DNA from: a virus
DNA length: 20,025 bases
Direction: 5' to 3' (one strand)
IMG/VR virus record: IMGVR_UViG_3300011013_000127
Location: 1 to 20,025 of that record
The notes under the pieces are model-generated. The model was not told where the DNA came from, ran no database searches, and saw only the letters and a list, made by a program, of their open reading frames with translations. This document shows positions 17,453 to 19,782 of this stretch, in pieces. Position numbers and translations under genes: made by a program. The number at the start of each line of letters is the position of its first letter. Position 1 is the stretch's first letter.

Positions 17453-17634
17453 TACTTGCCACCCTTCTTCTTCTGCATTCGCTTAGAGGCATAGTTCATC
17501 AACTCTTCGAGGTCACTCTCTTCGAGTTCAGCGTCGGGCTTACCCATGATGAGTTGAATCTTCATGGTCATCCGACCCGGTTTAAGTTCATCTAAATTAT
17601 CTTGCTTCTTTGCTTGCTTCTTTTTGTGTGCCAT
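17452..17634 (-). CDS. Small Lys-rich protein (60 aa)
   Basis: I prefer ATG at 17634 to the longer start at 17655: it forms a TAATG junction with the metallophosphoesterase stop, like the neighbouring junctions, and gives MAHKKKQAKKQDNLDELKPGRMTMKIQLIMGKPDAELEESDLEELMNYASKRMQKKKGGK. Both ends are rich in Lys and the centre is acidic and helical. This suggests nucleic-acid or nucleoprotein contact, but no family is recognised. It is coupled to the gene ahead and the gene behind. Confidence 0.6.
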   Translation of the reverse strand: MAHKKKQAKKQDNLDELKPGRMTMKIQLIMGKPDAELEESDLEELMNYASKRMQKKKGGK

Positions 17635-18809
17635 TAGTTTATCCTGTTTTTCCAAGCCCAGACTGCATCCCTGACATCCGAGAACCCGATCATCCTTCTT
17701 TCCTCAGGGAACAGGACAAAGGTCGGACATGTGGGGATAGCCGAGGCATATCCATATTGGTGTGAGTACGGGCTGGTAATCTGGTAGCTACCCGGCCTTG
17801 CCGCATATCTTTTCAGTCCGTGCCGAATAAACATTTCAGTAGCTGCTTCATGGTGGTGCCCAATAACTCCGATGTCAAACGGTTCTTCACCATACTCATA
17901 GAATCGTTTAACAGCGTGGGTCTGGTTCAGGCTGGAATTAAACCTTCCGGTCTGATGGCGTACCACCATTTTATATTCCTGCCCGCCTACATCAATATAC
18001 AACCTAGCCTCAGCGGGAGCATAACAAATCTTATGCTGTGCAACAATCTTAGAGAGATAATCCACGCCACCGATCTGTGCAGTCCACGCATCATGGTTAC
18101 CGCTAATCACAGCGAGTATCTTATCCCCGAACAATTGCAGATAGTAATCAAACAGTTTCCACTGTTCATCAGGTGTGGAGTTCGCGCCAATCAAAGCACT
18201 TCTATGTTTAATATGGTTATCAACCCCGTCGCCGCCAAAGATAGCGTAGAACCCGGGCGTGTCCCGAATCAGAATTGCGTCCTCGCGCATCCTTTTAAAA
18301 TCGCACGCGCTGCCGGGCGCGATATGTTGATCGGAAATTACCGATATCGCTATCGGGCCATTGGGGAATGACACATTAAACTTCCCTCTTTTAATTTCCT
18401 TATCAATTCTTTTTGCCGACTTCTTCTCGGCTCTTGACCATTCCCCGGGTCCATCCCAGTCGTCATCCCACAGCGGGGTAACGGTATGGTTTTCATACTG
18501 GTCAATTTGTTGCTTAAGATCTTTTAGTTCAGCCTGAAGTGCTTCGTTTTCAAAATCGTATGCAGCTTCAGATACAGCATCTTGAAAGTTATCAACAGAA
18601 GTTTTCGCAGTGGGTAGTTCCCTGACAACCTTTCCCTGTTTATCTGTGATTGGAAGTTGTCCTTGTTCTTTGAGGATGCGGAGACGATAGCTTACGCTAT
18701 TCGTACTCCTGCCTAGATGTTCGGCAACATCCCTTACTTGGAAGCCTTGCTGTCTAAGTTTAACGACACGAGCATCTTCTTCCGGTGTCCACGGTATATG
18801 CTTACTCAT
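17634..18809 (-). CDS. HTH-metallophosphoesterase fusion protein
   Basis: 391 residues; ATG at 18809 follows AGGAGGGAAACA. The N-terminus (7-48, WTPEEDARVVKLRQQGFQVRDVAEHLGRSTNSVSYRLRILKE) is a SANT/GcrA-type helix-turn-helix. A Glu/Lys/Gln coiled-coil-like linker follows (about 78-145). Residues 153-375 carry the calcineurin-like metallophosphoesterase motifs: SDQH (Asp160, His162), GGDGVDN (Asp194), SGNHD (Asn238, His239), VRH (His285) and GHHHE (His318, His320). All metal-ligand positions look intact, so it should be an active hydrolase; substrate unknown, with phosphodiester, nucleotide or nucleic-acid ends as options. It heads an operon with three small genes. The DNA-binding head suggests that it acts on DNA or at a defined site. 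Confidence 0.8.
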   Translation of the reverse strand: MSKHIPWTPEEDARVVKLRQQGFQVRDVAEHLGRSTNSVSYRLRILKEQGQLPITDKQGKVVRELPTAKTSVDNFQDAVSEAAYDFENEALQAELKDLKQQIDQYENHTVTPLWDDDWDGPGEWSRAEKKSAKRIDKEIKRGKFNVSFPNGPIAISVISDQHIAPGSACDFKRMREDAILIRDTPGFYAIFGGDGVDNHIKHRSALIGANSTPDEQWKLFDYYLQLFGDKILAVISGNHDAWTAQIGGVDYLSKIVAQHKICYAPAEARLYIDVGGQEYKMVVRHQTGRFNSSLNQTHAVKRFYEYGEEPFDIGVIGHHHEAATEMFIRHGLKRYAARPGSYQITSPYSHQYGYASAIPTCPTFVLFPEERRMIGFSDVRDAVWAWKNRIN

Positions 18810-18892: not shown

Positions 18893-18921
18893 TTGACCGT
18901 ATTCTGGTAACGTGCTAAATT
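18893..18921 (+). promoter_or_regulatory. Sigma70-type promoter reading into the structured RNA
   Basis: TTGACC (18893-18898, five of six) and TAAATT (18916-18921, four of six) are spaced by 17 bp; initiation would be near 18928, just ahead of the first strong hairpin. It is divergent from the TATAAT box at 18843-18848. Confidence 0.45.
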
Positions 18922-18927
18922 TGCTTA

Positions 18928-19304
18928 GTCTAAGTCGTTCTCCCTACCACGCTTTAGGCAGGTGTCGCATATCTAAAGGTGTGTGGCACCATTTTCTCCT
19001 TTGCTTGTTGTGGAATAAAACCCCAATTTGGTAAACAAGCTGGTGACTGGTCAGGCACCAATGTACTGCGGTGTATAAATCCTGACGAAAAAGGAGTCGA
19101 TAGCTACGACCTTGAGGGGTGTGGTACATCCCCTGACCTCAAGTGAGCACGAATTTCCTGCCTTGCACCCGTGAGTGTGTAAGGAGTAGCCTGATAACTG
19201 GGGTAAGCGAAACCCATACATCTGTCACTGGGCAGCTGAGCCAGTCAGGCCTCGACTCAGGGGGATGTGTGTACCGGCCGGTCCCCTCGGAAAGGACACA
19301 CATC
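18928..19304 (+). ncRNA. Large structured RNA or leader of unknown class
   Basis: No real gene is seen here; instead a chain of complementary segments is found on the strand that leads to the 19305 gene. Pairs seen: CCACGCTTTAG with CTAAA..GTGTGG (18947-18986), GCTTGTT/AACAAGC (19003-19040), GTCAGG-CACC/GGTG..CCTGAC (19050-19086), GTCG/CGAC (19096-19110), CTTGAGG/CCTCAAG (19111-19143, with GGGG/CCCC inside), CCTTGCAC/GTGTAAGG (19161-19184), CCTGA..CTGG/CCAGTCAGG (19190-19249), and GATGTGTG/CACACATC (19264-19304). So many adjacent stems of 6-9 bp are unlikely in random DNA. It does not match tmRNA, RNase P, group I or II intron cores, hammerhead, HDV, or a common riboswitch as far as I can tell by eye. 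The end is a leader because the last stem touches the ribosome-binding site of the next gene. Confidence 0.5.
19264..19304 (+). promoter_or_regulatory. Ribosome-binding-site sequestering hairpin
   Basis: GATGTGTG (19264-19271) pairs perfectly with CACACATC (19297-19304), the eight bases between the AAAGGA (19291-19296) and the ATG at 19305. The loop holds the palindrome ACCGGCCGGT (19273-19282), so a second stem may form there. The upstream AGGGG (19258-19262) can instead pair with CCCCT (19283-19287), which would compete with the outer stem; this is the layout of a translational switch. Confidence 0.5.
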
Positions 19305-19517
19305 ATGATTCGCTACTATATAAACACCGCACATAAACCTAATCTACTTATAGAACCCGGGGACCCAGTCGTCTGGCGTGGGGAGTATTCGCAACACTCT
19401 ACCACTGATGAACCCATAATATTAGTCAGACTGCTGTTCGACTATGATGCACCACTGTTCCCAGTACATAAAAACACTCTTGTTGAATTTGTACCTGCAA
19501 AAGATCTAGAAGAATAA
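19305..19517 (+). CDS. Small protein of unknown function (70 aa)
   Basis: I place the start at 19305 because AAAGGA lies eight bases upstream; a longer frame from 19143 runs through the RNA stems and has no ribosome-binding site. The product MIRYYINTAHKPNLLIEPGDPVVWRGEYSQHSTTDEPIILVRLLFDYDAPLFPVHKNTLVEFVPAKDLEE is acidic and predicted to be beta-rich, with no motif I recognise. The gene is alone on the plus strand, under the structured leader, and a weak hairpin (TGAC.CCGT with ACGG.GTCA, about 19539-19575) follows without a T run. It may be an early or regulatory gene. Confidence 0.6.
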   Translation: MIRYYINTAHKPNLLIEPGDPVVWRGEYSQHSTTDEPIILVRLLFDYDAPLFPVHKNTLVEFVPAKDLEE

Positions 19518-19715
19518 ATCCACTCTATGGACCGTATTTGACCCGTAACGGAAGCAAAACAAAACGGGAGTCAGAACACTAATCAGACGACGGACGGTGT
19601 ATACGGCTCTTCTGCGGCTTCTGGTGGGACGATTGGCCTAAGGGGGTGAAAAAATCCCCGAGTGGGACATTATGGGACCCCCGCGACCACGGGGTAGGCG
19701 TAGGCGGGTCAGCCT

Positions 19716-19736
19716 TATTGATACTCAGTATCAATA
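19716..19736. promoter_or_regulatory. 21-bp palindromic operator, site 1 (perfect)
   Basis: Arms TATTGATACT and AGTATCAATA are perfect complements around a single C. The inner 15 bp (TGATACTCAGTATCA) match the 7-1-7 Fur-type consensus TGATAATCATTATCA at 13 positions. Confidence 0.6.
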
Positions 19737-19738
19737 GC

Positions 19739-19759
19739 TATTGAGATTCATTCTCATTA
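19739..19759. promoter_or_regulatory. 21-bp palindromic operator, site 2
   Basis: This site starts TATTGAGA and ends TCTCATTA around TTCAT, with TGAGA/TCTCA as its clear inverted part. It is identical over 21 bases to site 3 and starts 23 bp after site 1. Confidence 0.6.
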
Positions 19760-19761
19760 CT

Positions 19762-19782
19762 TATTGAGATTCATTCTCATTA
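19762..19782. promoter_or_regulatory. 21-bp palindromic operator, site 3
   Basis: Exact copy of site 2, 23 bp further on. Inner 15 bases TGAGATTCATTCTCA match the 7-1-7 Fur-type consensus at 12 positions. Confidence 0.6.

Follow-up and report, generated by a model that had tools for sequence, protein, structure and literature searches.

A conserved, pseudoknotted RNA that precedes a gene for a small SH3-like protein in uncultivated phages and may act as its leader

What is encoded in the roughly 375 nucleotides, devoid of any credible gene, that lie between a promoter-like sequence and the gene for a 70-aa protein in the genome of an uncultivated phage? The stretch belongs to a virus record of 20,025 bases (IMG/VR record IMGVR_UViG_3300011013_000127), the whole of which is referred to here as the window. 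The minus strand of the window has an operon of late type, with terminase, portal and major head protein, and the region under study adjoins it in divergent orientation. On the plus strand, a sigma-70-like promoter, TTGACC-17-TAAATT, spans positions 18893-18921 (TTGACC at 18893-18898 and TAAATT at 18916-18921, with a 17-nt spacer) and would place the start of transcription near 18927-18928; -10-like hexamers are found at the corresponding place in the relatives L018 and L021 (TACACT) and L025 (TACATT). The promoter call is a consensus match, which does not prove function. Counted from where transcription is expected to begin up to the last base ahead of the ATG, the putative leader RNA covers positions 18928-19304 (plus strand) and is followed by the 70-aa gene at 19305-19517 (plus strand). 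A first-pass annotation had proposed an unclassified structured RNA for this interval, extending from the promoter to the ATG. The promoter and the stems that it quoted are all present with the sequences it gave, and the proposal itself is borne out by conservation, by covariation and by the absence of a matching Rfam family.

No recognisable relative of the phage terminase was found among the 50,697 phage records searched; a general DNA comparison of the window with isolated phages gave no match, nor did a search of isolated phages with the 70-aa protein. Weak matches obtained with the corresponding protein of relative L091 were at chance level and were rejected. ARAGORN detected no tRNA or tmRNA genes in the window. 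The neighbour on the minus strand (17634-18809) encodes a 391-aa protein that combines an N-terminal helix-turn-helix-like part with a calcineurin-like phosphoesterase domain; it corresponds to PHROG 7339 (DNA repair exonuclease), and its transcription is directed away from the RNA.

Relatives were gathered from IMG/VR with four baits: the terminase, the neighbouring phosphoesterase, the 70-aa protein and DNA patterns. A nucleotide profile (nhmmer) detects the region in ten distinct relatives beyond the window, all of them contigs of uncultivated phages, giving a set of 11 sequences that we call type 1 (the window, L004, L014, L018, L021, L022, L025, L035, L077, L083 and L088). The most distant member, L035, is recovered with a profile E value of 1e-19 and scores 161 bits with the covariance model. 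When sequence patterns were used to look for additional members, only known ones or chance matches came back (eight unrelated in one scan), and a pattern scan of genome contigs yielded no match to the type-1 RNA. The conserved core, delimited by nhmmer, the alignment A3, covariation and the covariance model R1, lies at 18994-19264 on the plus strand of the window; it measures 232-305 nt across the 11 sequences and contains about 80 invariant positions. Compared with its nearest relative, the window shows 1 difference in the 271 positions of the core and 18 in the 210 positions of the 70-aa gene (15 of these at third codon positions); in an adjacent intergenic stretch, identity is only 47%. A hidden protein gene was considered as an explanation and rejected: core lengths vary by lineage, and none of the reading frames stays open across the core in every homologue.

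A conserved structured RNA is encoded on the plus strand at 18928-19304, and it is conservation and covariation across relatives, not folding energy, that establish it. The fairer test rests on A3, an alignment built from sequence alone. On A3, the proposed structure pairs 89.8% of cells, compared with 73.5% in shuffles; 35 pairs are changed on both sides, compared with 23.1 (none of 500 shuffles reached as many), and the covariation score is 0.438 against 0.154. When partners were shifted by one to three columns as a control, pairing fell to 32-45%. The stems are thus kept by paired changes in homologues, as had been anticipated. With the sequences aligned by hand along the helices, 95.4% of cells pair and 40 of 62 pairs are changed on both sides (2,000 shuffles: mean 27, maximum 35); this alignment is biased, having been fitted to the structure. 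In either alignment the cells are not independent, since the 11 sequences group into about five lineages. Comparison of the folding energy with shuffled controls, also proposed at the outset, gave less: z is -1.65 on the plus strand, with 7 of 100 shuffles as good, and -2.70 on the minus strand. The energy model used cannot form pseudoknots, and taken alone its verdict is weak evidence for an RNA. An RNA made from the minus strand was rejected even though the z score is better there, as the helix cells contain 21 G-U pairs and 7 A-C mismatches. A-C would read as G-U on the opposite strand, so the excess of G-U favours the plus strand and points to transcription in the same direction as the gene.

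The fold model comprises 12 helices with crossing pairs, in the 5' to 3' order Z crossing A, F crossing B, the segment GAAAAAG, and then C enclosing D, E and G. The first-pass annotation had read the region as eight successive hairpins. Its stems exist, but they do not form a simple row: A interleaves with Z and F with B, and C closes a domain. The conserved core is preceded in the window by a 13-bp hairpin, P0, and a U-rich stretch (18961-18990, plus strand). L018, L021 and L025 have a long hairpin of different sequence at this position, between promoter and core, and the lineage of L014, L077, L083 and L088 has none; in these four, a promoter-like site stands directly 5' of helix Z and marks the natural 5' end of the core. 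P0 lies outside the universally conserved core.

Two H-type pseudoknots are supported by covariation. Pseudoknot 1 (18994-19040, plus strand) consists of helix Z (18994-18999/19010-19015) crossing helix A (19003-19009/19034-19040), with a small hairpin, Y (19023-19031), in its loop. Helix A, GCTTGTT/AACAAGC in the window, pairs in 100% of cells of the hand alignment, and six of its seven pairs are changed on both sides. The figures for helix Z are 92% and five of six; it has mismatches in the window and in L025, pairs in only 66% of cells on the MAFFT alignment, and is the least certain of the crossing helices. Pseudoknot 2 (19041-19086, plus strand) is made of helix F (19041-19045/19056-19060), with pair types UA, CG, AU and TA/CG, crossing helix B (19050-19055/19081-19086), in which four of six pairs are changed on both sides; within it lies hairpin H (19063-19066/19071-19074), with a UGCG or UGAG loop. 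In A3, the joining segment GAAAAAG (19087-19093) that comes next is near-invariant.

The 3' domain, 165 nt long, is closed by the long-range helix C (19094-19100/19252-19258), two pairs of which change on both sides, one of them being A-U, U-A or U-G depending on the lineage. Inside it, helix D (19111-19117/19137-19143; CTTGAGG/CCTCAAG in the window) shows changes on both strands in all seven pairs, around a loop in which the bases GUGUGG...CCCCU never vary. Helix E (19161-19168/19177-19184; CCTTGCAC/GTGTAAGG in the window) carries a GUGA (GNRA) loop in 10 of 11 sequences and has five of its eight pairs changed on both sides, and the covariation alignments place helix G at 19190-19193/19246-19249, continued by G2 at 19197-19201/19241-19245. 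A third pseudoknot is possible. The CCCCU of the helix D loop (19130-19134) could pair with AGGGG at 19259-19263 to form a helix K; the two strands are complementary in all 11 sequences and never vary, so that covariation neither supports nor refutes the pairing. Beyond the core, the window has a terminal hairpin, GATGTGTG/CACACATC (19264-19271/19297-19304), whose loop side carries the ribosome-binding sequence AAGGA (19292-19296). This hairpin occurs only in the window and in the near-identical L004, where it has one mismatch. It is the one among the four stems originally quoted that is not general; the other three are conserved with compensatory changes.

Does the RNA belong to a known class? 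The covariance models of Rfam 15, which include GOLLD, ROOL, OLE, HEARO, group I and II introns, RNase P, tmRNA, riboswitches and EAR, gave no match at gathering threshold for the window and six relatives, and nothing relevant was found at E values up to 10 for the window region and L018; the earlier failure to fit the sequence by eye to known classes is upheld. Our literature search found no description of the RNA, although its coverage was partial and an earlier description outside Rfam is not excluded. Most likely, the region represents a new class of structured RNA. Nearest to it in character are ROOL and GOLLD, which are likewise large, multi-pseudoknotted phage RNAs with strong covariation and unknown function, GOLLD also having a conserved 3' part and a variable 5' part (PMC12286853). 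GOLLD often exceeds 800 nt, and both are usually found near tRNA genes (PMC12286853). The type-1 RNA is smaller, comes from a window without such genes, is tied to one protein gene where ROOL and GOLLD have no partner gene, and is not matched by their models. It shares with riboswitches and with the pseudoknots of ribosomal-protein leaders a pseudoknotted fold, a 5' position and a 3' strand near the start codon of one gene, but it has no family match or known ligand, and its core is larger than most of theirs. The manA and wcaG motifs, structured RNAs found 5' of phage genes mainly in marine metagenomes, show that marine phages do carry structured leaders (PMC2864571); both are in Rfam, and their models do not match the type-1 RNA.

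The partner gene is constant. In each of the 11 type-1 phages, the gene that comes next on the strand of the RNA codes for a homologue of the 70-aa protein; these homologues are 70-86 aa long and share 33-51% identity between lineages. AlphaFold2 predicts a small barrel for the 70-aa protein (mean pLDDT 89.4), and the model satisfies the criterion for a small five-stranded SH3-like barrel. Its structural neighbours are SH3-like barrels, with VIA-align Z scores of up to 6.7, and the weak matches include Spt5/KOW among others; Foldseek returned no match below E 0.4. Scores this low may reflect a common arrangement only, and the predicted fold implies no function. The protein has no match in Pfam, none in PADLOC or NCBIfam at E values up to 1, and only chance-level matches in PHROGs. 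In L018, L021, L077 and L083, the gene is followed by another small gene whose product has one likely membrane helix and a WNWxW-like motif.

Other phages, including L038, L068, L069 and L090/L091, encode a relative of the SH3-like protein but have no type-1 RNA. The gene is preceded there (for instance in L118, L069 and L110) by a different conserved RNA of about 180 nt, the type-2 leader. Among its ten distinct sequences, 95.4% of cells are paired compared with 85.7% in shuffles, 15 pairs are changed on both sides compared with 8.5, and two sets of helices cross, making this RNA pseudoknotted as well. In most members, its last strand ends a few bases before the start codon, and in most sequences that strand holds the only candidate ribosome-binding bases. 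L072 and L073 have a diverged version with an insertion in a hairpin loop and without the G run before the start codon. Four matches in bacterial genomes, confined to a 22-base pattern, were taken as chance. The two types resemble each other in genomic place, in the gene served, in having a pseudoknotted fold whose final strand comes close to the start codon, and in strong covariation. They differ in their helices and show no detectable similarity by sequence or covariance model, and a common origin could not be shown. Every SH3-like homologue examined together with its upstream sequence has one type or the other. Several type-2 phages have a divergent neighbour other than the phosphoesterase, leaving the SH3-like gene as the constant partner. 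With leader type mapped on bootstrap trees, a single change sufficed in 64% of those for the protein and in none of those for the phosphoesterase. That leader type tracks the protein better than the neighbouring phosphoesterase is only suggestive, given that the protein tree is poorly resolved.

The reading that we find most likely is that the type-1 RNA acts in cis, as the 5' leader of an early phage mRNA, and gates production of the SH3-like protein. This function is inferred, not shown, and we give it about an even chance of being right. Most likely, host RNA polymerase would start at the sigma-70-like promoter and make the leader first, as part of what we infer to be a single mRNA running through the gene. 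As covariation shows, the leader folds as two H-type pseudoknots in tandem, followed by a 3' domain that helix C closes and that helix K might lock as a third pseudoknot. Depending on whether it is folded or bound by a partner, the 3' domain could then set the access of ribosomes to the start codon of the SH3-like gene. The likely partner would be the SH3-like protein itself, in an autoregulatory loop, or else a phage or host factor, although no ligand or binding is known. The leader reading is suggested by the near-perfect conservation of the core next to a diverging gene, by its invariable position directly upstream of one conserved gene and in the orientation of that gene, the plus strand showing nothing terminator-like between core and gene in type-1 phages (the joint transcript has not been observed), and by the sister phages, which keep the gene behind a different covarying, pseudoknotted leader close to the ATG. 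The relation of leader type to the protein tree, within its limits, adds to this. Ribosome-binding sequences provide a further argument. Seven of 11 type-1 genes, from no more than four lineages, have no adjacent four-base ribosome-binding match, as compared with 26% of the long reading frames of these contigs (74% of the frames have one). The contrast is if anything understated, since the long-frame set includes spurious frames, and the missing matches fit with leader-dependent initiation. Several features count against a leader: the distance from the last folded strand of the core to the start codon varies from 18 to 101 nt among type-1 members, the element immediately 5' of the ATG is not conserved between type-1 lineages, some 80 invariant positions exceed what simple autoregulation needs, the ribosome-binding-like G run is lost in the type-2 member L072, and no ligand, RNA-binding activity or transcript is known.

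The variable spacing and a core richer than control would require make a serious rival of the idea that the RNA is a stable non-coding molecule acting in trans, either by joining the SH3-like protein in a ribonucleoprotein or by serving a host factor as a decoy, with the gene placed downstream since the two are made together. Its size, its two or three pseudoknots, its GNRA and UNCG-like loops and the many unpaired bases that never vary suggest an active surface of its own; RNA and gene always co-occur; and SH3-like barrels are common in RNA-binding proteins, Spt5/KOW being among the weak matches obtained here. We nevertheless consider a trans-acting RNA unlikely: there is no terminator or processing site to separate it from the gene, the same gene is served by two unrelated RNAs, and SH3-like folds have so many functions that the match is unspecific. 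One could also envision, with slightly less reserve but still as a tentative idea only, a new class of phage RNA, compact yet knotted like catalytic or ribonucleoprotein RNAs, that works with the SH3-like protein and for which sister phages have swapped in an unrelated RNA doing the same job.

Other roles appear more remote. Transcribed first from an early promoter, the RNA might modify RNA polymerase and so carry it past the terminators of the early operon, and intrinsic terminator-like sequences do occur further down the operon in L021, L077 and L083. The put RNAs of phage HK022 and the EAR element are similarly promoter-proximal, structured and placed at the head of an operon. They are, however, several-fold smaller and simpler, nothing in Rfam matches, including the epsC/EAR family, and such a role accounts less easily for one gene having two unrelated RNAs, so that we regard processive antitermination as quite improbable. 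We are more doubtful still of a ribozyme or intron-like RNA with a new catalytic fold. The long-range helix, the pseudoknots and the highly conserved core recall the complexity of catalytic RNAs, but no Rfam match was found to group I, group II, RNase P or self-cleaving families, and the gene that follows is intact and begins with a start codon of its own, leaving no split exon to be seen. Least credible to us is an RNA antitoxin paired with the SH3-like protein in the manner of type III toxin-antitoxin systems. A pseudoknotted RNA directly 5' of a gene for a small SH3-like protein is reminiscent of such systems, and ToxN-type toxins also have a barrel fold; on the other hand, the RNA has no tandem repeats, it is not separated from the gene by a terminator, known type III toxins are more than twice as large as the protein, and no toxin family, ToxN, CptN and TenpN included, was matched in Pfam, or in PADLOC and NCBIfam at E values up to 1.

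Few large phage RNAs have a proven structure, and for most of them no partner is known. The type-1 RNA brings a testable one, since the same small gene always follows, and together with type 2 it provides a natural comparison in which two unrelated RNAs precede one gene. It also offers an entry to RNA-based control in a phage group that lacks a recognisable terminase relative among the records searched.

A second conserved non-coding patch is present in the window at 19627-19683 (TTGGCY(T/C)A...TGAAAAAATC...GNGGGACRTWAT) and also in L004, L014, L018, L021, L035, L038, L069, L083, L088 and L091. It lies downstream of the small early genes with either leader type, is followed by variable G- or C-rich runs, and could serve as a site on the DNA or give rise to a small RNA. 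L021 and L083 have a terminator-like sequence before it. Long C and G runs come after it in L018 (about positions 1-130) and near the ends of L021 and L022; several contigs stop at such runs, perhaps reflecting an assembly limit. Farther along the window, at 19714-19782, are three 23-base tandem copies of CTTATTGAGATTCATTCTCATTA, conserved in L004, with further ATTGATACT..AGTATCAAT inverted repeats nearby.
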